The notes under the pieces: generated by a model
What the model saw: the letters and a program-made list of their open reading frames with translations, nothing else
Told to the model about the DNA's origin: nothing
The model's database searches: none
Program-made: the position numbers and the translations under genes
Assembly (NCBI RefSeq): GCF_001190925.1
Contig: NZ_CP011072.1
Location: 372,001 to 436,000 of the forward strand
Direction: 5' to 3'
Length of the DNA: 64,000 nt
Source: Azoarcus sp. CIB
Lineage (GTDB): Bacteria; Pseudomonadota; Gammaproteobacteria; Burkholderiales; Rhodocyclaceae
Part shown: positions 1 to 13,574 of the stretch, one piece after another
Numbering within the stretch: the stretch's first letter is position 1
How the letters are laid out: the number at the start of each line of letters is the position of its first letter

Positions 1-1746
1 GGACATCCCGTTCGTACCGCTGGCGGTCCCCCCCGTATAGCTGCCGAGTGCGGGGAAGGAGGTGCCGGCGCCGTAGTCGGAATGGCACTTCAGGCACAGC
101 TGGTATTCACGCGTAAGGAACGGGTTGCTGCGCGCGGTATCCTCGTTGGCGCCGGGGTCGCCGCGCTTGACCGCATACGTCGTCGGCTGATTCGGCCAAT
201 CGGTGCTGGTGGTGAGGGCCGGATAGGTCGGTTCCACACCCCAGGTGCCGCGCAGGGGACCTGACGCGACGTTGCCGTTCACTCCGCCGAGTTCATGCGT
301 TCGACGCGTCGAAAGACCTTTGCCATTGAAGAGTGAATTCTTGAGCACGCGGTGCGGGTTATGGCAGTCCGTGCATTCAACGTGGCGGTTGGCATGGTTG
401 CCCGCGCCGAGCAGCGAGCGCCGTTCGATGAAGTCCGCGCCGCACTTGTTGGTGGGGCCGCTGCAGTCGACGAAGACGTCGTCGGTGAAATTCCCGCCAA
501 TATCGTGTCTTTCGGCGCTGGCCGGCTGGTCGGTGTTCGAGATCGGCATGCGCTTGTTGCCCGAGGTCGTGAACTCGGTGCGGATGTCCGGTACGCCGGT
601 GCTCGCGGTCATCGCAGCTACGTTGAGAATGCTTGCCGTTGTCGTGGTGTGACACTGATAGCAGGTTTCCTCGATTGCCGGATTGCCTCCGGACTTGGGA
701 ACGGAGGCGTTGTCGGTGCCCTCACGCAACAGGCGGCGCGAGCCCTGGACGGTGTGGGTGTCGTGGCAGTTCAGGCAGCCGGCTTCCCATACCTTGATGC
801 TCGCCGGGAACTCGCGCTGCGTTGCAGCCGTGCCCTGATACGCCGGAGTGGCGACGTTGGAGTTGGCGTGGGCCGAGTTCGACCATGCGAGATAGGCGGC
901 GCCCGTCCGATCCTTATTCTTGTCGTGGCAACCGAGGCAGATCTGGTCTGTGCTCGGATTGAAGCTTGTCCCGGGGCTGCTGGCCGTCTGGAAGCGGTTC
1001 AGGCGCAGGAATTTGCTTGCGTCGAGATGGGGGTCGTGACAGCTCGTGCACTGCACCTTGCCCTCGTGGTCGAGCGGCAGCATTGGTTTGGTGCCACGGC
1101 TGCGAATCCCGACCACGGTCTTCGTCTCACCCGCAACCACGACCGAATAGGGCGGCGAGCGGAATTCGCCGTCACGTTTTGACAGGGTGTCGGTGTCGGG
1201 GGCTGCGCTCTGGAAGGTGAAGGAGATCGGGTGGTCGTTGGTGAGATCGATCCCGAGGTTGCGCGTGTAGCCGGTCGTATTGCCGGCCGTCGGCATCTTG
1301 CCGTCGGGCGTGCCGACCATGGAGAGGGTCCTGCCGGTGCCGCTCCCGGGCGAGTTCGCGACCGCACCGAGCGCGAGTGTGCCGTCATGACAGGACAGGC
1401 ACAGTTTGGAGGCGCCGCCGGGCTGGCCGATCGGGCCATTGAGGATGTCTTCGGCGTCGAGCGAGTTCGAGGTGTAGGGCGTGTAGGTGGCCGAAGACAG
1501 CGTGCGGTTCCACAGTGGACCGGGAGCGGTGGCATTCGCTGCGTGCGGTGTGTGGCAGAAGACGCAGATCTGGTCGGTGCCGCTCGCGCCGGTCGCGGCC
1601 TTCACCGTTCCGGGGCCGGAGGTCGACAGATTGTGCTTGGTGTTCGAGACCTTCGCATTCGTGTTCTGGGCCAGTGCCAGCGTGGCCTGTCCGAACAGCG
1701 CCGCAGCGATGAGCAGCAGGGCATGGAATTTAGGGAAATTCTTCAT
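1..1746 (-). CDS. Exported multiheme c-type cytochrome, 3' end outside window
   Basis: The ATG at 1744-1746 follows an AAAAGG-type ribosome site and opens a signal peptide (hydrophobic core LLLIAAALFG, likely cut after ALA). The frame stays open to base 1, giving 582 codons without a stop, so the C-terminus is missing. Eight CXXCH haem sites are visible, read in order as CVFCH, CLSCH, CTSCH, CLGCH, CLNCH, CYQCH, CTDCH and CLKCH. The protein matches the cytochrome at 5122-7755 in N-terminal sequence (NTKHNLSTSG, then TYTPYTSNSLDA) and in haem-site order, so the two are paralogues. Expected role: periplasmic or outer-surface electron transfer; the partner is unknown. It is the last visible gene of a leftward run that also carries a radical SAM and a LuxE-like gene. 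Confidence 0.9.
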   Translation of the reverse strand, partial: MKNFPKFHALLLIAAALFGQATLALAQNTNAKVSNTKHNLSTSGPGTVKAATGASGTDQICVFCHTPHAANATAPGPLWNRTLSSATYTPYTSNSLDAEDILNGPIGQPGGASKLCLSCHDGTLALGAVANSPGSGTGRTLSMVGTPDGKMPTAGNTTGYTRNLGIDLTNDHPISFTFQSAAPDTDTLSKRDGEFRSPPYSVVVAGETKTVVGIRSRGTKPMLPLDHEGKVQCTSCHDPHLDASKFLRLNRFQTASSPGTSFNPSTDQICLGCHDKNKDRTGAAYLAWSNSAHANSNVATPAYQGTAATQREFPASIKVWEAGCLNCHDTHTVQGSRRLLREGTDNASVPKSGGNPAIEETCYQCHTTTTASILNVAAMTASTGVPDIRTEFTTSGNKRMPISNTDQPASAERHDIGGNFTDDVFVDCSGPTNKCGADFIERRSLLGAGNHANRHVECTDCHNPHRVLKNSLFNGKGLSTRRTHELGGVNGNVASGPLRGTWGVEPTYPALTTSTDWPNQPTTYAVKRGDPGANEDTARSNPFLTREYQLCLKCHSDYGAGTSFPALGSYTGGTASGTNGMS

Positions 1747-1810
1747 AACCTTTTGATGGCCGCGGGTATTTGGGCGCGCTCTGGGATGCGAAACGGTTAA
1801 TGCTAAACGA

Positions 1811-3403
1811 TTATGGGATCGGTGCGAAGTTTCGCGGCTCGGCGCCGGCCTGGACCTTGAGGTCGCGGCGCGTGGCATTGACCTTGCGCAGCATCTGCTT
1901 GACCGCTTCGGGCATGCGCTGGCCGGCGGCCATTTCCTGCATCTGGCCCGAGAGGTAGGAGTGGTTGATGAGGATGTCGAACACCGCCAGCATGAACTCC
2001 TGCTTCCACTCCGAGAGCTGGTCGAGGTTCTGGAATTTGTGCATGAAGAAGTTGCGCGACGCGCGGCCCAGTTCGCGTTCGACTTCCTCGAGCGTCATCG
2101 CGTCGGGTTTGACGACGGGCTGTACGAGGTTGTACTTGCTGTAGTCCTTGGTCGCGACGTGGGCCTCGAGTTGCGGGTAGAGGTCCGCGTAAGGCCACGG
2201 GGCGATCGCGAGGAAGAAGGCCATGTCGGGGTTGTAGAGCTTGGCGAGTTCGACGGCTTCCTTGAAGGTCTCGGGCGTGTCGCCGGGCATGCCGAGCACG
2301 AAGGAGGTCTCGGAGACGATGTCGGAGCCGTTGATGATGTCGATCGCGCGGCGCGAGTCGGCAGCTTTCGAGCCTTTCTTGAAGAGGTCCAGGGTGGCTT
2401 GCTGGCCGGCCTCGACGCCGACGTAGATGTGTTCGACGCCGGCTTCGGCATAGCGGTCCATGATGTCCTCGTCGCGCACGATGTCGTCGACGCGGGTTTC
2501 CATCAGCAGGCGCACGCCAGGCTTGCGCTCGATCATCAGTTCGAGGATGCGCTCCCAGCGGGGGCGGTCGAAGGTCGGGATCTCGTCGGCGAGCATGGCG
2601 ACCTGCACGCCGTACTTCTGGTGCAGCATTTCGATTTCGGCGACGAAGTTCTCGGCGCTGCGGGCGCGCCAGCCGCGGCGCCAGAACAGCTTTTGCGAGC
2701 AGAAGGAGCAGTCCTGCTGGCAGCCGCGCGCGGAGGAGACGATCGCCAGGCGCGCGTCGTTCTTGGCGCGGTACTTGTAGATCGGCCACTCGACGAGGTC
2801 CCACGCGGTGGGTAGCGAGTCGAGGTCGCGGATGAAGGGGGCGGAGCGGGTCGCGATGACGCCGCCGTCGCGCCAGAAGGCGAGGCCGGCGACTTTTGCC
2901 GGGTCGTCGCCGGCGTTGAGGCAGTTCAGCAGCTGGGGTAGCGTCAGTTCGCCTTCGCCGCGCACGACGAAGTCGATCGCGTCGTTGTCGATGCGCAGCA
3001 TCTCCTGGTAGCAGAAGGTCGCGTGCACATTGCCGATGACGGTGACGATCTCCGGGTCGATTTCCTTGGCGAGGCGCAGCAGTTTCGTCGCTGCGACGAT
3101 CGCGGCGGTGAAAGCCGAGGTGCACACCACATCGGGGCGGAAGTCCTCGAGACGCTTCTGGATCTGGGCCTCGTCGTGCCACAGGGACATCGCGTCGTAG
3201 TAGTCGACCTCGTAGCCCGCTTCGCGCAGGGCGCCGGCGATGTAGACGAAGCCAACGTTGAGCCAGGTACCGGCCGATTCCACGACCCCCGAGTGATAAG
3301 GCACGGTGACGAGCGCGACGCGCTTGATCTTGCGTTGCCGCGGCGTGGCGGGACCGGTGCGCGGGGGAGGGGTGAAGGTGATCGGGGAGCCGTTGGTTTT
3401 CAT
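1811..3403 (-). CDS. B12-binding-type radical SAM protein (BchE-like)
   Basis: A 530-residue protein with an N-terminal cobalamin-binding-like Rossmann domain (about residues 25-165) followed by a radical SAM domain. The iron-sulfur site is CxxxCxxC in GCQQDCSFC near residue 230. The DxHxxG histidine of methionine-synthase-type B12 domains is not seen, as is usual in the BchE-like branch. The family performs methylations, cyclisations and other radical reactions; the substrate here cannot be inferred. I prefer the ATG at 3403 (MKTNGSP) over an upstream start at 3448 because the conserved domain starts shortly after it, though neither has a strong ribosome site. It lies 161 bp after the LuxE-like gene and 64 bp before a multiheme cytochrome gene, so co-transcription is likely. 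Confidence 0.85.
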   Translation of the reverse strand: MKTNGSPITFTPPPRTGPATPRQRKIKRVALVTVPYHSGVVESAGTWLNVGFVYIAGALREAGYEVDYYDAMSLWHDEAQIQKRLEDFRPDVVCTSAFTAAIVAATKLLRLAKEIDPEIVTVIGNVHATFCYQEMLRIDNDAIDFVVRGEGELTLPQLLNCLNAGDDPAKVAGLAFWRDGGVIATRSAPFIRDLDSLPTAWDLVEWPIYKYRAKNDARLAIVSSARGCQQDCSFCSQKLFWRRGWRARSAENFVAEIEMLHQKYGVQVAMLADEIPTFDRPRWERILELMIERKPGVRLLMETRVDDIVRDEDIMDRYAEAGVEHIYVGVEAGQQATLDLFKKGSKAADSRRAIDIINGSDIVSETSFVLGMPGDTPETFKEAVELAKLYNPDMAFFLAIAPWPYADLYPQLEAHVATKDYSKYNLVQPVVKPDAMTLEEVERELGRASRNFFMHKFQNLDQLSEWKQEFMLAVFDILINHSYLSGQMQEMAAGQRMPEAVKQMLRKVNATRRDLKVQAGAEPRNFAPIP

Positions 3404-3564
3404 TGTTTTCTGCGTGCGGACGTGTCGGGGGGAGACTACCGGCGGCATGGTAGGTGAGCACCTGCCCGAGGCGTTTGACGTACATCAACGGCATTGCCGA
3501 AGGCATGGCGGAACCGCGTGCCGACGGGGCCGGTACGCGGGAAGGGGGCAGGAAGGGCGCCGGA

Positions 3565-4935
3565 TCAGCGCGCTGCGGCGGTGGAGTCGGTGGCGGAGTC
3601 CACGCGGGGGACGGGGTTGGCGAGCATCTCCTCGCTCAACTCGTCGCACGGGCATACGGGCGGCGTCATCGGCAGCGGCGCCGGGATGGCGCTGTCGGCC
3701 GCTGCGGGCTTGCGTGCGCGGGCGAGGCCCATCTTGAAGCGGATGGAGAAATTCACGTAGGCCTCGAGGAAGCGGAAGATGCGCTTGTCGCCCATCGGGC
3801 CGACTGCGCGTTCGCTCGGCAGCGGGGTGACCTTGCCATCGACGAGCTTCGCGCGACCGACGATCTGGAAGCTGCCGTCATGGTCGACGTAGCCGAGGTT
3901 GTCGGTCTGCACGGCCAGCACGGTCGGCAGGTTGGCGAGGTCGTAGTGGCGCAGCAGGCCGACTTCGCCGGGAGGGAGGGGGCGCAGGTCGTCGAGGCCG
4001 ACTGCGGCGACGCGCGCCCACGGCGGGGTGAGCCGGCGGCGCTGCGAGGTCCGGCCCTGGACGGCGGCGCGCAGCGTGTCGTCGAAGTAGTTCGTGGCGC
4101 TCTCGGCCATGCCGAGCACGTTCACGCAGTGCGAGGCCGGAATGCCGAGGACCTCGCCGGCGAGGCGGAAGTAGTCGTCCTGCGTGAGTTCGCCGAAGCG
4201 CCCGCGGTAGCCGCCGCCGTCGCCGATGCGACTACCGGTGGGCAGGCGGAAGCGCAGGCCGCGCGCCTTGCAGGCGTTGAAGAAATACACGAAGGCCGAG
4301 GTGGAGCCGATCATCGCGAGCGGGACGCCGGTGGCTTCGGATTCTTCCAGCGCGGCGATAAGCCCCTTGATGTCGAGGCCCGAGTAGTCGAGCAGGAAGC
4401 GGCTGTCAGGGGTGCCGAAGTGGCGGCGTGTCTCGTCCATACCGACCGCCATGCCCATCGACGGCGCCATCTCGGGGCTGGGGGCGAGGATGAGGATGCG
4501 GCAGCGCTGGCCGCGCGCGAAGTCGGGGAACAGGTAGGCCCCGGTCATCGTGCGGTTGGCGGTGAGGATAAGCTCGCGGCCGATGTCGTCGCGAAAGATC
4601 TGGCCGCGCCGGTTGGCGGTGGTGCCGCTGGTGATCTGCGCCATCACGGCCTGTTCGGGCGGGAAGGACGTGACGATAGCGGTCTTGAAACTGTCGGTCG
4701 GGAAGGCGGGGATGTGGCGCCAGTCGGTGACCTGGGCGGGCGTGATGCCTTTGGCTTCGCAGAATTCGCGGTAGGGGATGTTGCGCTCGAACTGCCACGC
4801 GAAGATTTCCGGTGCGAGGGCGTCGAAGGGCGCGCGGTCGGCGTCGATGCCGGCGGCGATCATGGCGCGGATGCGTTCGGCGAGTCGCTCGCGCACGGGG
4901 TCGGGCTGGGTGTCGGGGGAGGTATTCGTGGTCAT
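3565..4935 (-). CDS. LuxE/acyl-protein synthetase-like ANL-family enzyme
   Basis: A 456-residue member of the LuxE-type branch of adenylate-forming enzymes. It has an ITSGTTANR phosphate-binding loop near residue 110 and an adenylate-forming core, and it lacks the large C-terminal lid domain of CoA ligases. LuxE proteins activate a fatty acid as acyl-AMP and then carry it as a thioester. No LuxC reductase or luciferase genes are nearby, so bioluminescence is not suggested. The last ~50 residues are low-complexity and include CPCDE. Start chosen at the ATG at 4935 (MTTNTSP); an in-frame upstream extension is Ala/Arg-rich and not protein-like. The pairing with a B12-type radical SAM gene suggests a modification pathway acting on an acyl or aryl acid, which is inference. 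Confidence 0.8.
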   Translation of the reverse strand: MTTNTSPDTQPDPVRERLAERIRAMIAAGIDADRAPFDALAPEIFAWQFERNIPYREFCEAKGITPAQVTDWRHIPAFPTDSFKTAIVTSFPPEQAVMAQITSGTTANRRGQIFRDDIGRELILTANRTMTGAYLFPDFARGQRCRILILAPSPEMAPSMGMAVGMDETRRHFGTPDSRFLLDYSGLDIKGLIAALEESEATGVPLAMIGSTSAFVYFFNACKARGLRFRLPTGSRIGDGGGYRGRFGELTQDDYFRLAGEVLGIPASHCVNVLGMAESATNYFDDTLRAAVQGRTSQRRRLTPPWARVAAVGLDDLRPLPPGEVGLLRHYDLANLPTVLAVQTDNLGYVDHDGSFQIVGRAKLVDGKVTPLPSERAVGPMGDKRIFRFLEAYVNFSIRFKMGLARARKPAAADSAIPAPLPMTPPVCPCDELSEEMLANPVPRVDSATDSTAAAR

Positions 4936-5121
4936 GGCGGCGACTCGGAGTGTGCACGCCGCGGTGGTTGCGGCGGGGCCGCATGCCGCGCGAGCAAGGC
5001 GCTCGCGGGTGGCCCGGGAAAGGTGTGCGCACTCTATCAACAGTCGTCATGCGACTTGTTGACGAGGATCAGTCGCCGCGGTGCCGGCCCGGCGCGGCTG
5101 CGGCACCGCGCCGGACACAGC

Positions 5122-7755
5122 TTAGGGCGGATTGGAGCAGGTGTTCGTCATCCAGTCCTTGCCGGTGGCTGGATTGGTGTTGTTGGAGGTGTTGCCGTTG
5201 CTCGCAGGAATGCGATCTCCAACTGCCTTTTGCGACGAGCCGCAGTCGCTGTCGGACCAATCGGCGTTCTGGCGGAAATTGACGATCTTCAGCTTGGCGC
5301 GCCGGTAGTAGGGGCCTTCGCTGTAGTTGTCGGAGCTTCCGTTTATCGCGACCTCCTTGCTGCCGACCTGGCCGGCCTCGGCGCCGACGTCGTTGAGGTT
5401 CACGAGGAAGGACTTGTTCTTCCAGCCGTGCGGGACGGCGACGTGACACCAGTTGCAGCGCATGCTGCCGATCTTCTCGCGGTGATAGGCGTGCAGGTCG
5501 CCCCGGCCGCCGCCGCGGAAGCCTGTCGTGCCGCCGCCGTTGGCATACACGGTCGAATGGCACTTGAAGCACAGGGCGCCGGTGTCGGGGCTGCCGGTGC
5601 TGGTGTTATACGGGCCCTTCAGCAGGAAATTGTTGGTCGAACCGTGCGGCCCCCATGGGTTCGGGCTGGTCGGCGTGATCGTGCCGGCCGCGGTGGCGTT
5701 GCCGTGGCAATCGGTGCAATGCATCGTGTTGGTGCCGACGCTGGAGTTCCACGGTGCGAGCCAGGAGTTGGCGCTTGCGTTGTTGCGCAGGGAGGTCGTG
5801 CGCCCGGTGTTGGCCATGACGGGATGCCACGAGCGGTGGTTGCCGCTGTTGTAGGCTGTGCCGGCGCCGGCGTCGGTGCCGAGGGGGCCGGGGGCACCCT
5901 GGTGCGTGATCGGGGCCTGGAATTCGCGCGCCTGGTTGGTGTAGCGCGTGTAGTTGTTCCTTTCGGTGACCGCGCTGCCGGAGGGCGTGCCGGGTGCGCC
6001 GAGCTCGGGACGCCGGATGCCGCTCGGATAGACATTGTCGTCCGGATAGCCGTAATCGGAATGACACTTCAGGCACACCTGGTATTCGCGCGTCACCCAC
6101 GGGCTGGTGACGGCCGTGGCGGCGCCTTGTCCGCCATCGCCGCTCTTTTCCGTGTAGCTGTTCGGCAGTGCGAAGAAGCTGCGCGTTCCGTAGACCGGCT
6201 CGACGCCGAAGGTGCCGCGCAGCGCGCCCGACGCGATGTTGCCGTTCGCACCGCCCGGGACGTGGGTGCGTTGGTCGGTGCCGGTGAGGTTGAACACGCT
6301 GTTGCGCGTGACGCGGTGCGGGTTGTGGCAGTCGGTGCACTCGGCGTGGCGGTTGTTCACGTCGATCTGGCCGAGCGTCGTGCGGTCTTCGGCGAAGTTG
6401 TGGTCCTTGATGTCGTGGCTCTCGACACCGGATTTTTGTTCCGCGGTCGTGATCGGCATGTGCCGCGGCAGGCTGAAGTCGGTCTTGATGTTGGGTACGG
6501 TGCCGGTGGCGGTGCCGATGATGCTTTCGCCCGAGGTCGTGTGGCACTGGTAGCAGGTTTCCTCGACTGCCGAGACGGCGTTGGGCGCGGCTGTCGAGCC
6601 GGTCCTGAAACTGCCGACGCCGGTGCCGCCGGTGGCGCCGCTGATGCCCTCGCGCAGCAGGCGGCGCGTGCCCTGCACGGCGTGGGTGTCGTGGCAGTTG
6701 AGGCAGGCGGCCTGCCAGACCTGTGTCGTTGTCGGGAATTCGCGGCGGTTCGCGGAGTCGGTCTTGTACTGCTCGTCGGCGATCGTCTGCGAGGCGTGTG
6801 AGGATTGCGACCAGGCGGTGCCGAGCTTGTCGTGGCAGCCGAGGCAGATCTGGTCGGAGGCGGCATTGAACGCGCCGCCGGCCGGGTTGGCGCTCTGGAA
6901 GCGGTTCAGGCGCAGGAATTTCGACACGTCGAGGTGCGGGTCGTGGCAGGTCGTGCATTGCACCTGTCCGGCCCCGGCCGTGCCGGTCGGCTGCAGCGGC
7001 AGCAAAGGCTTGAGGCCGGGACCGCGGATGCCGATCACGCTGCCGCTGGCAGGGGGGTGGCGCTGCTGTGCGTCCATGCGGCGCAGTTCGCCGTCGGCTG
7101 CAGCCAGCGTGTCGTTGAAAGTGAAGGAAATCGGGTGGTCGTTGCGCAGATCGACGCCGAGATTGCGCGTGAAGCCCGAAGTTGCGCCCTGCGGACCGGC
7201 GGGCATCTTGCCTGCGTCGGTGCCGCTCATCGTCACCGATACGTTGGTGTTACCCCCCAGCACGCCGACCGTGCCGATCGCCATCGTGCCGTCGTGACAG
7301 GAAAGGCACAGTTTGGAGCTGCCGCCGGGCTGCGACAGCGCCCCGAAGATCGTCTGCGCGTCGAGCGAGTTCGAGGTGTAGGGCGTGTAGGTCGCGTTGG
7401 AGAGTTCGCGGTTCCACAGCGGCGCCGGTGCGCTCGCATTGGCGGCGTGCGGCGTGTGGCAGAACACGCAGATCTGGCTTTCCGTGTTGGCCTTGACCGT
7501 GCCGGAGCCGGACGTGGACAGGTTGTGCTTGGTGTTGGCGATCTTCGACTGCTGTGCCGATGCGGGCGTGATGCAGGCGATCGCGAGCAGGGCGAGTGCG
7601 GTGCGCTGCAGTGCGCGGACCCAGCGGCGGGTATCGACAACCCGGTGCGGGGTGTGGCCGGCGTGCCGGGTCGCGGCTACAGCGGTAGCGGAGGCTCGGC
7701 GGTTCCGCAGTGGCGGTGCGCCGATGGGGGGGCCATCGTTGATGGGCTCGTTCAT
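5122..7755 (-). CDS. Exported undecaheme c-type cytochrome
   Basis: 877 residues from the ATG at 7755 (MNEPIND). A hydrophobic export segment (LALLAIACITPASAQ) starts about 55 residues in. This is a long N-region, so the true start may lie further inside; no good ribosome site marks it. Eleven CXXCH sites are readable: CVFCH, CLSCH, CTTCH, CLGCH, CLNCH, CYQCH, CTDCH, CLKCH, CTDCH, CFKCH and CNWCH. Several sit in paired contexts typical of doubled-CXXCH cytochromes. It is the full-length paralogue of the cytochrome at 1-1746 and adds three haem sites beyond the region visible there. Likely a periplasmic or extracellular electron carrier. It heads the leftward set with LuxE-like, radical SAM and cytochrome genes. 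Confidence 0.9.
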   Translation of the reverse strand: MNEPINDGPPIGAPPLRNRRASATAVAATRHAGHTPHRVVDTRRWVRALQRTALALLAIACITPASAQQSKIANTKHNLSTSGSGTVKANTESQICVFCHTPHAANASAPAPLWNRELSNATYTPYTSNSLDAQTIFGALSQPGGSSKLCLSCHDGTMAIGTVGVLGGNTNVSVTMSGTDAGKMPAGPQGATSGFTRNLGVDLRNDHPISFTFNDTLAAADGELRRMDAQQRHPPASGSVIGIRGPGLKPLLPLQPTGTAGAGQVQCTTCHDPHLDVSKFLRLNRFQSANPAGGAFNAASDQICLGCHDKLGTAWSQSSHASQTIADEQYKTDSANRREFPTTTQVWQAACLNCHDTHAVQGTRRLLREGISGATGGTGVGSFRTGSTAAPNAVSAVEETCYQCHTTSGESIIGTATGTVPNIKTDFSLPRHMPITTAEQKSGVESHDIKDHNFAEDRTTLGQIDVNNRHAECTDCHNPHRVTRNSVFNLTGTDQRTHVPGGANGNIASGALRGTFGVEPVYGTRSFFALPNSYTEKSGDGGQGAATAVTSPWVTREYQVCLKCHSDYGYPDDNVYPSGIRRPELGAPGTPSGSAVTERNNYTRYTNQAREFQAPITHQGAPGPLGTDAGAGTAYNSGNHRSWHPVMANTGRTTSLRNNASANSWLAPWNSSVGTNTMHCTDCHGNATAAGTITPTSPNPWGPHGSTNNFLLKGPYNTSTGSPDTGALCFKCHSTVYANGGGTTGFRGGGRGDLHAYHREKIGSMRCNWCHVAVPHGWKNKSFLVNLNDVGAEAGQVGSKEVAINGSSDNYSEGPYYRRAKLKIVNFRQNADWSDSDCGSSQKAVGDRIPASNGNTSNNTNPATGKDWMTNTCSNPP

Positions 7756-7988
7756 CGTCTGTCGGGTGTGCGTTGACCGTTGGGTTGCCCGCACGCCATC
7801 CGGAGCGGGCCCGAATAGACCGGCCCCATGTCGACGCCGAATCGGGGTTGCAAGTTCCCCCCGGCCCGGCGGGCAGGGACGGATAGTCACGCTTGCTTGT
7901 GCAAGGCTCGTTCTTTTCGCCGATTATCGGGCACGGTCTGGCGAATGCAAAGCGCCGAAACGTATCCGTTTTGCACGCTACGCGCGGA

Positions 7989-9398
7989 TTACCGCGCTGC
8001 GGAGGCGGGGGGCGTTTCCAGGTAGGGGAAGTATTGCCGGTCTGCGCCGACGAGGTGCTGGGCGACGATGTCGTAGGCGAGGAACTGGAATACCTCCGCG
8101 ATGGGGAGCTCGGCGTCCCGCCGGGCGCGCTCGAACAGCCGGGTGGCCTGCGCGAGCAGGTGTCCGTGCTCGGCGGCATGCGCCACGCGGGCGGGATAGC
8201 CGATGGCGTCGTGCAGCTGCTCTTCTTCCGCGAAATGCGCGGTGATGTCTTCGACGAGGACTTCCATCGCTTCGAGGACTTCTGCGCGCGGTGCGTGCGA
8301 GATCACGGCGTGCAGAAGGCGGTTCGCGTGTTCGAAGAGCTGACGGTGCTGGTGGTCCACCCGCTCGTTGCCGCTGCGGTAGCTTTCGCGCCACACCAGC
8401 TCGACCGGCGAACTTGCCAGGCGGGTACCGTCGCTCGCGAATGCGGAATAGGGGTCGGAGACGACGCGATTGCGTCCGGTATCCTTGGCCCGGTACATCG
8501 CGCGGTCGGCGCGTGCGAGCCAGTGCTCGAAGCCTTCGCTGCTGTGGTATTCGGCGACGCCGACACTGATGGTGACCGGTCGTGCGCTCGACAGTTGCGC
8601 CTCGGCCACGCGCGCACACAGCTTCTGTGCCAGTTGTTCGGCTTCGCGCAGGGCGGTGTCGGGCGCGAGCACGACGAATTCCTCGCCGCCCCAGCGCGTG
8701 ACGGTGTCGGCACGGCGGATGTCGCCGCGGATGCAGCGGACGAGCTCGACGAGCACGTAGTCGCCGACGGCATGGCCGAGTTGGTCGTTGATTTCCTTGA
8801 AGTGGTCGACGTCGAGCACCAGCAGGGAGACGGAGTGGCCGTGACGTTCGGCGCGGGACATTTCCAGCAGGGCGGCGTCTTCGAGATGGCGGCGGTTCCA
8901 CGCACCGGTCAGCCGGTCGGTGTAGGCGAGGCGCTCCATCTGTTCGAGGGCGTGCAGGAGCTCTGCGTGGCGCGCCTCGGCGTACTCGGCCGGGTTGGCG
9001 ATGGCGCCGGTGCGTGCGCCGGTTTCGGTGGCGATCATCCCCGATGCGATGATCTCGCCGTCGCCCGCGCGTAGCGGGAAGCGCGTGATGAGGAAGCGGC
9101 GCGAGCGCAGTCCCACGATGGCTTCTTCTTCGCTGTGCGTGACCTCCACGGATGCGCCGTTGCCGATGCGCAGGACCCGGGGTACGCCGGCGGTGCGCAG
9201 CACGTCGTCTTCGTGCCTGCCCGGTAGCGATTCGGCCGGAAGATTCAGCATCTGCGCGAAGGCCTCGTTCGCGTAGAGGTAGGTGCCGTCATTGCCGCGA
9301 ATCGCGATCAGGGCCGGCGACTGGGCAACGAGCGAATGCAGGAGCGATGCGCGGGCGTCGCGAGCCGGGGTTTCCGTTGAGACCAGGGTTTCGCTCAT
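7989..9398 (-). CDS. PAS - diguanylate cyclase (GGEEF) - bacteriohemerythrin protein
   Basis: A 469-residue cytoplasmic protein. Domains in order are PAS (about 20-125), GGDEF (about 160-320, active-site GGEEF near residue 236) and a C-terminal hemerythrin-like domain (about 335-465). An inhibitory RxxD site lies exactly five residues before GGEEF, so product feedback is expected. The hemerythrin ligand pattern is intact: HQH, a second His seven residues on, HFAEEE, HAAEHGH, and a final HLVGAD. Such domains bind O2 at a di-iron centre, so c-di-GMP synthesis is probably tuned by oxygen or redox state. I chose the ATG at 9398 (MSETLVS); the upstream in-frame ATG at 9443 is less likely. No membrane segment is seen. 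Confidence 0.9.
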   Translation of the reverse strand: MSETLVSTETPARDARASLLHSLVAQSPALIAIRGNDGTYLYANEAFAQMLNLPAESLPGRHEDDVLRTAGVPRVLRIGNGASVEVTHSEEEAIVGLRSRRFLITRFPLRAGDGEIIASGMIATETGARTGAIANPAEYAEARHAELLHALEQMERLAYTDRLTGAWNRRHLEDAALLEMSRAERHGHSVSLLVLDVDHFKEINDQLGHAVGDYVLVELVRCIRGDIRRADTVTRWGGEEFVVLAPDTALREAEQLAQKLCARVAEAQLSSARPVTISVGVAEYHSSEGFEHWLARADRAMYRAKDTGRNRVVSDPYSAFASDGTRLASSPVELVWRESYRSGNERVDHQHRQLFEHANRLLHAVISHAPRAEVLEAMEVLVEDITAHFAEEEQLHDAIGYPARVAHAAEHGHLLAQATRLFERARRDAELPIAEVFQFLAYDIVAQHLVGADRQYFPYLETPPASAAR

Positions 9399-9549
9399 TC
9401 GACCAGATTCCGAGTGCGTGAACAATAACCGCACTCCCGTCATTGGCTTGCGATCAGCGGCATTTTAGCGGGATCGGGGCGTGTCTGGCGTGATTCCGGT
9501 CACGTGCGTTCGGGCTGTGGCGACAGGCGACGGCGGGGGCAAAGCGCGG

Positions 9550-9555
9550 TATAGT
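9550..9555 (+). promoter_or_regulatory. Candidate -10 box upstream of the glycosyltransferase operon
   Basis: TATAGT sits about 135 bp before the GT9 start in the 290-bp gap. No convincing -35 lies at the right distance. A 6-bp inverted repeat (CATGCG, six bases, CGCATG) lies downstream at 9602-9619 and could be an operator or leader hairpin. Confidence 0.3.
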
Positions 9556-9688
9556 CCGCTCCGTTCGACATCACCTGAATTGCCTGTTTGTATGCGTATT
9601 TCATGCGATTGCACGCATGTCTTCGAAATGAATTCGAGGCCGGCGCAGATGACGCAGCGGAACGGCGATCTGCGTCGGAGGAGTGGTC

Positions 9689-10954
9689 GTGCCCGGCCCT
9701 GAGGCGATGCGCCGCATGGACCGCTGGCTCGGTGTGCCGCTGTGTGCCGCGCTGTCGGGACTGCGCAGGGCGGTGCGTGCGTGGTGGCGAACGCGGGCTC
9801 AGGAACAGGCGGTGCGCCGCGTGCTCTTCGTGCAATTGGCCGAATCCGGCAGCATGGTGCTCGCAGATCCGGCGATGCGTGCGCTGGCGGCGCGCAGCGG
9901 TGCGCAGGCGTATTGCCTGACCTTTGCGCATAATCGCGACAGCCTCGCGATTGCCGGTACGGTGCCGCCCGAGCGGGTGTTCGTGATCCGCACGGGATCG
10001 CTGCGCATGCTGGCGGCGGATGCCTGGCGTTTCCTGCGCGACGTGCGCCGGGCGCGCATCGATGCGCTTGTCGATCTCGAACTGTTCTCGCGCCTGACCG
10101 CGGCCTTGTGCCTGCTGACGGGGGTGCGCCGGCGCGCGGGTTTCCACCGCTTCGAAGGGGTCGGTCTGTATCGCGGCGACTTGTATACGCATCCGCTGGC
10201 CTTCAATCCGCAGCTGCACATGGCACAGAACTACCTGATGCTGGTCGAGGCCTTGTTCGCCGAGGATGTGCCGCCCGCGCCACGCCTGCCGGCGGCAATG
10301 CTGGTGCCGCGCGTGCGTCGGCGCGAGTTGGGCGCGGACGAGCTGGCGGCGGTGCGGAACAGGCTGGCCCGCTTTGGGGGCGGTCCGGTCGGCGACGAAC
10401 GCATCGTGTTCGTGAATGCCAACGCGAGCGCGATGCTGCCTCAGCGGCGCTGGCCGCAAGCACACTTCGTGGCGCTGGTACGCGCGACGCTCGCACGCCA
10501 TGCGGAGGTGCGTGTGCTGCTGATCGGTGCCGAGGACGACCGGGCGACGACGGCGGCGATCGCGGCCGAGGTCGGGGATGTGCGCTGCGTCGATATCGCG
10601 GGGCACTTCGCCCTCGGCGAATTGCCGGCGCTGTTTACGCTCGGCGCCGCGCTGGTCAGCAACGACTCGGGGCCCGCGCACTTCGCCGCGGTTACGGCCC
10701 TGCCTGTGATCGCCCTGTTCGGTCCCGAGACGCCGGTGTTGTTCCGGCCGCTGGGGGATGCGACCGTGATTAGTGCCGGGCTGGCTTGTTCGCCGTGCGT
10801 GAATGCGGGCAATCAGCGGCGCACGCGCTGCACGGATAACCAGTGCATGCAGCGGATTTCGGTCGCAGAGGTGTTCGGTGCGCTGTGCCGCGTGCTCGAT
10901 GCGCGGCCGGCGCGGCTGGTACAAAGCGACGGTCTGGCCGGGGTCGGGGCGTGA
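9689..10954 (+). CDS. Glycosyltransferase family 9 (heptosyltransferase-like)
   Basis: 421 residues. GTG at 9689 is chosen because GGAGGA at 9677-9682 is spaced six bases before it; the in-frame GTG at 9683 would abut that site. The C-terminal half has the GT9 signature NDSGPAHFAAVTALPVIALFGP and the typical following Cys region (CSPC, then CTDNQCM). An N-terminal basic/hydrophobic stretch comes before the first Rossmann domain (VLFVQLAESGS). GT9 enzymes such as WaaC/WaaF transfer heptose or related sugars from nucleotide donors to lipid A-core or other acceptors. It is the first gene of a three-gene coupled operon. No LPS core genes adjoin it, so the acceptor is uncertain. Confidence 0.85.
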   Translation: MPGPEAMRRMDRWLGVPLCAALSGLRRAVRAWWRTRAQEQAVRRVLFVQLAESGSMVLADPAMRALAARSGAQAYCLTFAHNRDSLAIAGTVPPERVFVIRTGSLRMLAADAWRFLRDVRRARIDALVDLELFSRLTAALCLLTGVRRRAGFHRFEGVGLYRGDLYTHPLAFNPQLHMAQNYLMLVEALFAEDVPPAPRLPAAMLVPRVRRRELGADELAAVRNRLARFGGGPVGDERIVFVNANASAMLPQRRWPQAHFVALVRATLARHAEVRVLLIGAEDDRATTAAIAAEVGDVRCVDIAGHFALGELPALFTLGAALVSNDSGPAHFAAVTALPVIALFGPETPVLFRPLGDATVISAGLACSPCVNAGNQRRTRCTDNQCMQRISVAEVFGALCRVLDARPARLVQSDGLAGVGA

Positions 10955-12156
10955 TTCCGCGCCGGCGCATTCCGCTGGAGTGGGGCGATCTCGCGGACGC
11001 GTTGCGTGCGCCGTGGGGGTCGGCCGACGCCACGGCGGCGCAGGTGGCGGCTTTCGAGCGCGCCTTCGCCGACGCGGTCGGCGTGCCGCATGCGATCGCG
11101 ACCGCGAGCGGCCGCGATGCGCTCGGCCTGATCCTGGACGGGCTGGGGCTCGGCGCGGGCGACGAGTTGGTGATCCCGGCCTATACGCTGGGCGAACTGG
11201 TTCCGCTGATTCGCGCGCGCGGCATCGTGCCGGTGCCGGCCGACGTGGATCCGGCGAGCTTCAACATGACGGCCGCCAGCGTCGCCACCCGCATCGGGCC
11301 GCGCACGCGTGCGATCTTCGTCGTGCATCTGCTCGGCGCGCCGTGCGACATCCGCGGCATCTGCGCCCTTGCGAATGCGCACGGCATTGCGGTGGTCGAG
11401 GACTGCGCGCATGCCTTCGGGGCGTCGATCGACGGCCGTCCGGCCGGCAGTTTCGGCCGCGCCGCGCTGTTCAGCCTGGAGGCGACGAAGGCCGTGGCGG
11501 CGTTCGGCGGTGGCGTCCTGACGACGGCGGACGAGGCGCTGGCGGCCGCGACGCGGGCGCGCCTGGCCGGGCGCGCACGACGCGAGTGGCCGCCGGTGCG
11601 CAAGATGCTGCTGAAGTTCGCGGAAGAGCTTGCGGTGCGCAGCCCCGCCTACGCGATCGCCGCGCGCGTGATGTTTTCGGCGCGTCGTGGCGGCGGTTTC
11701 GACCGCCTCTATCGCCAGGCACATGACCGGGTGCGCGGGACGGCGGCTGCGTTCAGCGGCTTCCAGGCGCGGCTGGGCCTGCGCAAGCTGCAGCGGGCAC
11801 AGGCGCGGCAGAAGCGCCTCGATGCGCAGTGGGAGGTGCTCGCGCGCAGCCTGCCGCCGCGTTTTGTCACCCAGCGGCGCGGTGATTTCGGCCGGCCGGC
11901 GTTCTACAACTTCGTCGCGCGCTTTCAGGGCGACATCGGCGCCCTGCGTGCCGCGGCGCAGCGGCACGGCCTGGACCTGGGCATAGGCGGGGAGGTGATG
12001 GACGATACCGCGGCGATGCTCGGCTACACCGATTGTCCCGGTGCCGCGACGGCGGCGGCTCAGGCGGTGTTGATCCCCCTGTACGACGGGCTTTCGGAGG
12101 GGCGTCTGCGGCGCACGGCCGCCATTCTCCGGCGACTTGCGGAGGAACTCCCATGA
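10951..12156 (+). CDS. DegT/DnrJ/EryC1-type PLP aminotransferase
   Basis: 401 residues starting with GTG at 10951, whose GTGA overlaps the TGA stop of the glycosyltransferase by four bases, so translation is coupled. Family features are the ASGRDALGLIL cofactor-phosphate region, DELVIPAYTL, VVEDCAHAFGA (the Asp that contacts the PLP ring nitrogen) and a Schiff-base Lys in LEATKAVAAFGGG. These enzymes aminate keto-sugars of nucleotide sugars, or act as related dehydratases. Together with GT9 this suggests synthesis and transfer of an amino sugar, but no nucleotide-sugar epimerase or dehydratase is nearby. In some clusters the family acts on lipid or cyclitol substrates instead. Confidence 0.85.
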   Translation: MIPRRRIPLEWGDLADALRAPWGSADATAAQVAAFERAFADAVGVPHAIATASGRDALGLILDGLGLGAGDELVIPAYTLGELVPLIRARGIVPVPADVDPASFNMTAASVATRIGPRTRAIFVVHLLGAPCDIRGICALANAHGIAVVEDCAHAFGASIDGRPAGSFGRAALFSLEATKAVAAFGGGVLTTADEALAAATRARLAGRARREWPPVRKMLLKFAEELAVRSPAYAIAARVMFSARRGGGFDRLYRQAHDRVRGTAAAFSGFQARLGLRKLQRAQARQKRLDAQWEVLARSLPPRFVTQRRGDFGRPAFYNFVARFQGDIGALRAAAQRHGLDLGIGGEVMDDTAAMLGYTDCPGAATAAAQAVLIPLYDGLSEGRLRRTAAILRRLAEELP

Positions 12157-13574
12157 CCGGTTCGGGACATCCCGTCGTCGTGCTGCGCGTCGACCGCGAG
12201 GCGGGGCGCCATACGGGTCATCCGCGCCACCTGCATCCGGCGCTCGACCTGATGTACGTGCAGGGCGGGCTGGAGGAGGCCCTGAAGGTCGCGGTGCCGC
12301 TGCTCGATGGCTGGCTGGGGGATTTTTCCGTCGACGCGTTCGTCGCGCGGGTGCTGGCCTTGAAACCGCGTGTCGCGGTGATCCGTGCCGTGACCTGGTG
12401 CCTGGAGGAGTCGGTACGCGTCGCCGCGGCGTTGCGCGCGGCTGGAGTCGTCACGATCGCGGTCGGGCAGCAGGTGCAGCACGTCGCGCGGACGCGGTTT
12501 CATGGCTGGAGCGAGGCCTACGACCTGGCCGTGCCGGGCGAGCCCGAGGAGGAGGCGCCGCGCTTGGCGCTGCGTGTGCTGGCGGGCGAGGATCTTGCGG
12601 CCCTGCGCGAGGAATGCCGCTTGCGCGTGGGTGCAGGCGAAATCGTGCTCGTGGGCGCGCCCGATGCGCTGCCGCGCCCGCGCTTCGGGCGCGATGCACT
12701 GAAGGCGTATGCGTTCCCGTTCCCGGTGCGCGGGCGGCCGGCGGCGCGGTGGGGCTACGTGCTCACCGCATGGGGCTGTCCGCGGCCGTGCCGCCATTGC
12801 ACGGCCATCGTGCGCAAGAGCGTTGGACGGGACTTGCGGGTGCGCTCGGTCGGCGACGTGGTCGACGAGGTACTCGCGCTGAAGGCTGCCGGGGCGCAGG
12901 CGATCGCCTTCGAGGATGATTCGCTGCTGGTGCATCGCGGTCGCTTCCTGCAACTGGCCGACGAACTGGTGCGTCGCGGCGTCGAGCTGCCGTGGATGGC
13001 GAATGCGCGCCCCGACGAGCTCGACGAGGAGCGGGTGGCCGCGGCCGCGGCGGCCGGCGCGGTATTGCTGAAGGTGGGCGTCGACAGCGGTTCGGCGCGG
13101 CTGATCGAGCGTCTGGGCAAGACTGCGGATGGTGCGGGCTGGGTTGCCGCGACGGAATCGGCTTTCGAACGGCTGGATCGGGCCGGCATCGGCTCGGTGG
13201 CCTTGTTCATGGTCGGCATGCCGGACGAGACCGAGGACGATGCCGAGGATACGCTGGCGCTGGCGCGGCGCATCAGCCCCGATTACCTGCAGATGCAGAT
13301 CTATCGCCCGTATCCGGACGTGCCCTTGTGGAGCGAGCTGCCGCCGCAGCGGCGCACGCACGGCGCCGAATACCACTACCTGACGCCGGCGAGCAGCTGC
13401 AGCCGCATTCCGCCGGCCGCGTTGACGGCCCTGCAGCGCCGCTTCTACCGGACCTTTTACCTGCGTCCGGGATTCGTCGCGCGCCACCTCGCGCGCCACT
13501 GGCGGCATTACCTGTCGGTGGCCGGGCTGGCGCGCGCGCCCGGCGCGCTGGTGTACCTGCTGCGCGGCGCCTGA
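12153..13574 (+). CDS. B12-binding-type radical SAM protein
   Basis: 473 residues. The ATG at 12153 overlaps the previous stop as ATGA. An N-terminal cobalamin-binding-like region (about 1-150) is followed by a radical SAM core with CxxxCxxC in GCPRPCRHC near residue 212. Further conserved segments are AIAFEDDSLL, VGVDSGS and VALFMVGMPDETEDD, and the C-terminus is long and Arg/His-rich. It differs clearly from the radical SAM protein at 1811-3403. Its place as third gene of a coupled operon with a glycosyltransferase and a DegT-type enzyme suggests it modifies the same glycan or lipid. The chemistry (methylation or another C-C bond step) cannot be read from sequence. Confidence 0.85.
   Translation: MTGSGHPVVVLRVDREAGRHTGHPRHLHPALDLMYVQGGLEEALKVAVPLLDGWLGDFSVDAFVARVLALKPRVAVIRAVTWCLEESVRVAAALRAAGVVTIAVGQQVQHVARTRFHGWSEAYDLAVPGEPEEEAPRLALRVLAGEDLAALREECRLRVGAGEIVLVGAPDALPRPRFGRDALKAYAFPFPVRGRPAARWGYVLTAWGCPRPCRHCTAIVRKSVGRDLRVRSVGDVVDEVLALKAAGAQAIAFEDDSLLVHRGRFLQLADELVRRGVELPWMANARPDELDEERVAAAAAAGAVLLKVGVDSGSARLIERLGKTADGAGWVAATESAFERLDRAGIGSVALFMVGMPDETEDDAEDTLALARRISPDYLQMQIYRPYPDVPLWSELPPQRRTHGAEYHYLTPASSCSRIPPAALTALQRRFYRTFYLRPGFVARHLARHWRHYLSVAGLARAPGALVYLLRGA

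Follow-up and report, generated by a model that had tools for sequence, protein, structure and literature searches.

What do a LuxE-like acyl-activating enzyme and a B12-type radical SAM enzyme do between two multihaem cytochromes? The question arises at the start of the 64,000-nucleotide stretch of the Azoarcus sp. CIB genome analysed here ("the window"; bases 372001 to 436000 of a 5.26-Mb single-contig genome), for which the original prediction described four leftward genes in a row. All four frames are present, the second cytochrome (MHC2) only partly within the window. They are the front of a nine-gene leftward block that the window edge cuts: MHC1, LuxE-like enzyme, B12 radical SAM enzyme, MHC2, ResB, FGE1, FGE2, TPR, and CcsA (Table 1). 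With the assigned starts, the gaps at the MHC1/LuxE/radical SAM/MHC2/ResB junctions are 186, 161, 64, and 31 bases, and neighbouring genes from ResB through CcsA either share 4 bases or are separated by 12.

Table 1. Features of the block and of related genes in the same genome (positions are those of the window unless marked as genome positions)
Feature	Position	Strand	Description
MHC1	5122-7755	-	11 CXXCH; OmcE-like N-terminal module; 877 aa from assigned start
LuxE-like enzyme	3565-4935	-	PF04443; presumed carboxylate-activating; invariant C-terminal Cys (C430)
B12-binding radical SAM enzyme	1811-3403	-	One clade with BchE; CxxxCxxC in sequence
MHC2, N-terminal 582 residues	1-1746	-	OmcE-like N terminus; gene runs on ~860 bases leftward
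PAS-GGDEF-haemerythrin protein	7989-9443	-	Upstream of MHC1, same strand
ResB-like, two FGE-domain proteins, TPR protein, CcsA	genome 366660-371108, left of window		In this order after MHC2
OmcE-type cluster (L176)	genome C1:318000-337999		Two 4-haem OmcE-like genes, NHL proteins, PPIase, large TPR-type protein (label by eye), 3-haem cytochrome, ResB, CcsA

The block ResB is short (327 aa) and matched PF05140 at 36.2 bits (cut-off, 24.6), and the block CcsA matched PF01578 at 96.5 bits (cut-off, 29.9) and the NCBIfam CcsB model at 142.9, under that model's cut-off of 187.6; the CcsB model also found matches in 3 of 14 named control genomes. Judged by these domains, the pair is an additional, second set of System II haem-attachment genes, differing from a System II synthase (CcsBA) in its combination with LuxE-like and radical SAM enzymes. 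Both FGE-domain proteins have N termini that look signal peptide-like by eye. An Rfam scan of window positions 1 to 12500 returned no match at the gathering score, and a promoter and terminator scan of positions 1 to 10000 gave counts equal to or under those of shuffled sequence, with five terminator-like sites, all on the strand opposite to the block. The PAS-GGDEF-haemerythrin gene adjoins MHC1 in six of eight examined relatives (L014 to L017, L019, and L020), and in the remaining two the contig stops short of it; its product may be an oxygen-sensing c-di-GMP switch serving the block. Divergent from the block are genes for a GT9 glycosyltransferase, a DegT-type aminotransferase, and another radical SAM protein (12033-13571) on the plus strand (9683-13571), which also adjoin the block in several relatives, and a GT87 gene immediately follows the block CcsA.

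The block is conserved across two genera. A search for the LuxE-like protein in 61 genomes around the source genome returned high-scoring matches in nine, namely, 8 of the 17 genus members (source genome included) and G025, which belongs to another genus; a weak tenth match (G056; 25% identity, E = 1.7e-7) was excluded from this count. The order LuxE-radical SAM-MHC2, the uniqueness of which to this strain had been left as a point to check, is kept in all nine LuxE-positive genomes, and LuxE identity across them is 81 to 97%. MHC1 stands ahead of LuxE in eight, the ninth contig stopping at LuxE, and ResB, FGE1, FGE2, TPR, and CcsA follow MHC2 as far as the contigs extend; ResB was present in all eight genomes checked (seven relatives and the source genome). 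Between MHC1 and LuxE, G014 carries a GT87-like frame (recognized by eye), and G025, G002, and G010 carry a gene for a small membrane protein, which had no match in the source genome or in five further LuxE-positive genomes of the genus.

The complete MHC2 has 868 aa from its assigned start and 11 CXXCH motifs, in keeping with the predicted minimum of eight haems, and the paralogy first read from the order of eight haem sites extends to 11 sites that line up in order across 16 aligned MHC1/MHC2-type copies. Fifteen more His columns are conserved in at least 15 of these 16 copies, and the source genome's MHC1 and MHC2 are 52% identical. The cytochromes are paralogues, as proposed, but the cytochrome tree gave no support to the further suggestion that one arose from the other around the two enzymes: it dates the duplication earlier than the divergence of G025 and the source genus and does not resolve whether MHC1 or MHC2 is the older copy. 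In phmmer searches against all PDB sequences (E up to 1), the sole matches were OmcE (7tfs; E = 5.9e-26 for MHC1 and 7.7e-22 for MHC2, in both cases over the N-terminal part only) and the multihaem chain 9yuq. The N-terminal parts of MHC1 and MHC2 are homologous to OmcE, with the CVFCHTPH / CxSCHDG / NDHP pattern in common. However, OmcE has 4 haems in a 232-residue chain, whereas MHC1 and MHC2 have 11 motifs in 868 to 877 residues with no full-length match, and their block includes synthase genes of its own as well as the LuxE-like and radical SAM enzymes. OmcE polymerizes into extracellular filaments with His ligation between subunits; MHC1 and MHC2 are candidates for such assembly. Given these OmcE-like N termini, extracellular-type electron transfer is a likely setting, one of the two (extracellular or periplasmic) that the original prediction named. 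An AlphaFold model of MHC1 from a 12-row alignment had a mean pLDDT of 27.6 and was unusable.

Across the family, an MHC2 query over 121 genomes found matches in eight at E = 1e-30, the source genome and G025 among them. Four genomes of four other genera (G363, G387, G399, and G437) hold a relative 47 to 55% identical to MHC1, with 11 motifs in three and the fourth cut by a contig end; G365 and G033 gave only weaker OmcE-like matches. As in OmcE-type clusters, these single-copy relatives have NHL, ResB, and CcsA neighbours: on L051, L052, and L053, the 11-haem gene adjoins genes for NHL-repeat and TPR-type proteins, small cytochromes, ResB, and CcsA, and L052 and L053 also hold a PPIase gene and a 4-haem OmcE-like gene. 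LuxE, radical SAM, and FGE had no match on the stretches holding the 11-haem gene in the four genera. The source genome has an OmcE-type cluster without an 11-haem gene at 318 to 336 kb, ~35 to 55 kb from the block, in which a 4-haem protein matches OmcE over nearly its full length (E = 6.9e-28) and an NHL gene directly adjoins ResB, leaving the 11-haem slot empty. The slot is empty in all ten OmcE-type cluster copies read from the source genus and G025 (L057, L176, and L178 to L185), so the giant cytochromes, present in two copies, have a second locus of their own that includes another ResB/CcsA pair. In agreement, all eight LuxE-positive genus members have two CcsA matches, and all nine LuxE-negative members have none or one. 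Between the OmcE-type cluster and the LuxE block lie three tandem genes for multi-TPR proteins whose N termini share an FHxDD motif (L177 3-5488; genome C1:338002-343487); they resemble protein O-mannosyltransferases, and filament glycosylation is a possible role.

The radical SAM enzyme matched the Pfam B12-binding and radical SAM domains at 100.9 and 86.3 bits. On the NCBIfam BchE model it scored 400.5 bits, under the cut-off of 481.35, followed by HpnR at 148; it scored 96.5 bits on a ladderane-type model. At E = 1e-90 the BchE model had no match in the 14 named control genomes, and at E = 1e-20 it had matches in 3 of them. The BchE score alone proves little, because proteins from G172 (426.9) and G243 (402.6) outscore the block enzyme yet fall outside the BchE clade, the seven BchE rows of which score 817 to 835. 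In a 36-row tree, BchE, type A (Aromatoleum and Coriobacteriia), and type B (Coriobacteriia and Motiliproteus/Neptunomonas) grouped together with 100/100 support, apart from five other BchE-model matches. This second tree omits six long or broken rows (L065, L071, L072, L073, L105, and window 12033-13571); the first tree, which had a single BchE and a larger set of outside rows, supported the BchE clade at 99/98. BchE proper is a separate 100/100 clade, the block enzyme forms a separate lineage outside it, and types A and B came together as one clade without BchE in only 31% of bootstraps. Twenty-one alignment columns unite BchE with types A and B and are missing from the five outside proteins. 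The block enzyme, 37% identical to a BchE, resembles BchE in its two domains, its clade, and these columns, but differs in its score below the cut-off, its place outside the BchE subclade, and its LuxE-like partner. No chlorophyll genes were among the annotated genes around it. BchE is the anaerobic Mg-protoporphyrin IX monomethyl ester cyclase. PMC13142503 describes it as adding a ketone and building a fifth ring at the ester side chain of a porphyrin, and counts it among non-methylating B12 radical SAM enzymes, which act on widely differing molecules.

The LuxE-like partner of the block enzyme matched the Pfam LuxE family (PF04443) at 64.4 bits (cut-off, 24.9) and the NCBIfam LuxE model at 55.5 bits, under the cut-off of 550, and aligned to LuxE (PDB 7xc6 chain E) over 304 chain residues (E = 1.8e-23). 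LuxE, the acyl-protein synthetase of luminescence, carries its acyl group on a C-terminal Cys. A Cys near the C terminus is invariant in all eight aligned LuxE-family rows across lineages, in a region beyond the end of the 7xc6 alignment. PF04443 is thus common to both enzymes, whereas the block enzyme is tied to ResB/CcsA, and no LuxC or LuxD was among the annotated block neighbours. LuxE relatives at ~200 bits in other Proteobacteria (L036 to L039) were set aside as another subfamily; for two, the next frame is LuxC-like by eye (L079 and L080). The AlphaFold model of the LuxE-like protein (9 rows) had a mean pLDDT of 45.4 and was likewise unusable.

The same enzymes occur in distant bacteria. 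A LuxE alignment scan of a species-genome collection recovered 14 loci, six of them of the Aromatoleum type, three at ~60% identity (a Coriobacteriia bin, Motiliproteus, and a Neptunomonas bin), and five at 26 to 36%; on the Coriobacteriia contig, the order is MHC-ResB-LuxE-CcsA. Among 149 Coriobacteriia genomes, LuxE was found in 14, BchE-clade radical SAM genes in 52 (membership assigned by score, with 16 placed by tree), and CcsA in 63. Measured against whichever of two queries is nearer, the LuxE proteins are 55 to 66% identical (47% for one second copy), and the 58 radical SAM rows comprise 26 of type A and 32 of type B, one gene being split over two rows. LuxE adjoins ResB and/or CcsA in 11 of the 14 genomes and is near neither in 3; a frame with at least five haem motifs occurs on only 3 of the 14 LuxE stretches. 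Radical SAM genes were present in 13/14 LuxE-positive genomes versus 39/135 others (Fisher P = 4e-6, without correction for descent, which confounds co-occurrence within one class), and 51/52 radical SAM-positive genomes also had a CcsA match. Fifteen of the 58 radical SAM rows (13/32 type B and 2/26 type A) lie within 5 kb of CcsA, versus 0.9 expected if 1.5% is assumed for each gene (binomial P = 7e-15). All 14 linked stretches examined (the fifteenth being L107) held ResB, CcsA, and a frame with at least five haem motifs; these frames have 6 to 27 motifs and weak or no resemblance to MHC1 or MHC2. The small membrane protein is ~115 residues long, falls in no Pfam family, and carries an N-[ND]-[YF]-x-H-D motif (N-F-V-H-D in a single case) and a K-H late in the sequence. 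It occurs alongside LuxE, radical SAM, or CcsA on 5 of the 14 LuxE stretches, in Motiliproteus, and in 3 Aromatoleum-type blocks, and it was present on 6 of the 14 linked radical SAM stretches, which were chosen for linkage. Two Coriobacteriia genomes carry a different B12-type radical SAM frame, a weak match to the block enzyme, between CcsA and the small membrane protein/LuxE (L105 5015-6367 and L103 11129-13558).

The remaining 43 Coriobacteriia radical SAM rows are not within 5 kb of CcsA. Neither ResB nor CcsA was present on 20 examined stretches of these, and a PilT-like frame (by eye) lay near the radical SAM gene in 15 of 17 unlinked type A stretches examined. Type A and some type B genes occupy one conserved site beside this PilT-like ATPase frame (L129 to L147; by eye). 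No LuxE was found at E = 1e-40 in 39 of the 52 radical SAM-positive genomes. Motiliproteus and a Neptunomonas bin have the LuxE-radical SAM pair with no multihaem cytochrome, ResB, or CcsA in the 21 and 8 kb examined around it; CcsA lies elsewhere in the Motiliproteus genome, and the Neptunomonas bin had no CcsA match. Right after the pair in Motiliproteus is a gene for an NnrU-family membrane protein (Pfam; L032 12910-13587), and a similar frame is found in the Neptunomonas bin (L028 5378-6052).

Gene positions thus establish a genomic linkage between the enzyme pair and a predicted haem-attachment machine. The original prediction offered a lipid- or aryl-linked cofactor as a product; the ResB/CcsA genes in the block, the linkage in Coriobacteriia, and the BchE-clade radical SAM enzyme shift the interpretation to haem and cytochrome maturation, and the accompanying suggestion that the enzymes modify the cytochromes holds in a broad sense, through this haem-attachment context. 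Our leading reading, to which we give a probability of about 0.45, is that the LuxE-like and radical SAM enzymes tailor a tetrapyrrole (haem or a precursor, probably at a propionate) that CcsBA attaches to the cytochromes, the block being devoted to making two OmcE-related cytochromes of 11 haems each. The substrate and product that we infer for the pair are as follows. In the cytoplasm, the LuxE-like enzyme would adenylate a tetrapyrrole carboxylate, most plausibly a haem (or porphyrin) propionate, and might hold it as a thioester on the invariant C-terminal Cys, activating or blocking the carboxylate in a role akin to that of the methyl ester in the BchE substrate. The BchE-like enzyme would then oxidize or cyclize the activated side chain to a ketone, an olefin, or a fifth ring. 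Where it occurs, the small membrane protein may handle the tailored product in the membrane, and CcsBA would export this product and ligate it to CXXCH sites, giving a modified haem c that could leave the haem chain with altered potential, stacking, or insulation. Tailoring before attachment would be the economical reading, because a BchE-clade enzyme, the LuxE family, a His-bearing membrane protein, and a haem-attachment machine are common to the lineages.

Haem tailoring is weakened most by the Motiliproteus and Neptunomonas pairs without cytochromes and by the unlinked majority of Coriobacteriia copies. Confidence is slightly lower still because so few LuxE stretches hold a multihaem frame and because proteins outside the BchE clade reach equally high scores with that model; the radical SAM-positive genomes without LuxE, the small membrane protein missing from the source genome, and the 11-haem cytochrome on enzyme-free stretches in four genera are further points against it. 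LuxE-type enzymes act on fatty acids, and the cytochrome-free Motiliproteus pair would suit an enzyme pair that makes another small molecule for cytochrome-bearing envelopes, such as a lipid anchor, a quinone derivative, or the sugar precursor of a filament glycan, with ResB/CcsA adjacent since they serve the same electron chain. B12 radical SAM enzymes do include lipid enzymes, according to PMC13142503; glycosyltransferases flank the block (GT9, with DegT and radical SAM, to the right and GT87 after CcsA, with the GT87-like frame inside the G014 block); and PMC9473688 describes OmcE as extensively glycosylated. We nevertheless consider this less likely: the neighbours common to the lineages, as screened with the block proteins and by eye rather than for lipid or sugar genes, are ResB, CcsA, and the His-bearing membrane protein, and the radical SAM enzyme groups with BchE in trees and scores lower on the hopanoid model HpnR and on the ladderane-type lipid model.

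Modification of the cytochrome polypeptide itself, by radical methylation or cross-linking or by acyl transfer to Lys or Cys, as a maturation step before or after export, appears improbable. Peptide-methylating B12 radical SAM families exist, LuxE forms acyl-enzyme intermediates, and the FGE superfamily, represented nearby, includes protein-modifying members. However, c-type cytochromes are exported and receive their haem outside the cytoplasm, neither enzyme has a signal peptide-like N terminus by eye, and the multihaem frames on linked Coriobacteriia stretches hardly resemble MHC1 or MHC2. Nor do we see much likelihood that the enzymes are ordinary neighbours, performing an anaerobic tetrapyrrole or B12-linked step near the cytochromes, such as precursor supply under anoxia, while leaving the attached haem alone. 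In Coriobacteriia, LuxE and radical SAM can occur apart, and most radical SAM copies are not beside CcsA, many of them at the one site near the PilT-like frame; against this stand a gene order kept over nine genomes of two genera with high LuxE identity and repeated ResB/CcsA links, for both enzyme families, in another phylum.

If the enzymes do tailor haem, a broader version can be put forward with slightly less assurance: a new pathway yielding a modified haem, perhaps one bearing an oxidized propionate or an isocyclic ring, for a dedicated CcsBA to attach to nanowire-type cytochromes, with parallel versions in Coriobacteriia and an ancestor in common with BchE. The cytochromes and the synthase are versions of types already known. 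The enzyme combination, unfamiliar at first reading, also had no counterpart in searches of open-licence literature: no report among the matches listed tied the pair to multihaem cytochromes or haem attachment. By the usual view, c-type cytochromes carry unmodified haem b held by thioether bonds; the occurrence of related enzymes next to haem attachment in distant bacteria hints at a chemically altered haem, and the conserved link among a BchE-clade enzyme, a presumed carboxylate-activating enzyme, and haem attachment suggests that some nanowire-type cytochromes may carry one. If so, altered haem would offer a route to tuning conductive protein wires and would bear on the origin of the anaerobic chlorophyll cyclase. 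Even with another substrate, the locus places 11-haem OmcE-related cytochromes, with maturation genes of their own, in the Aromatoleum group.
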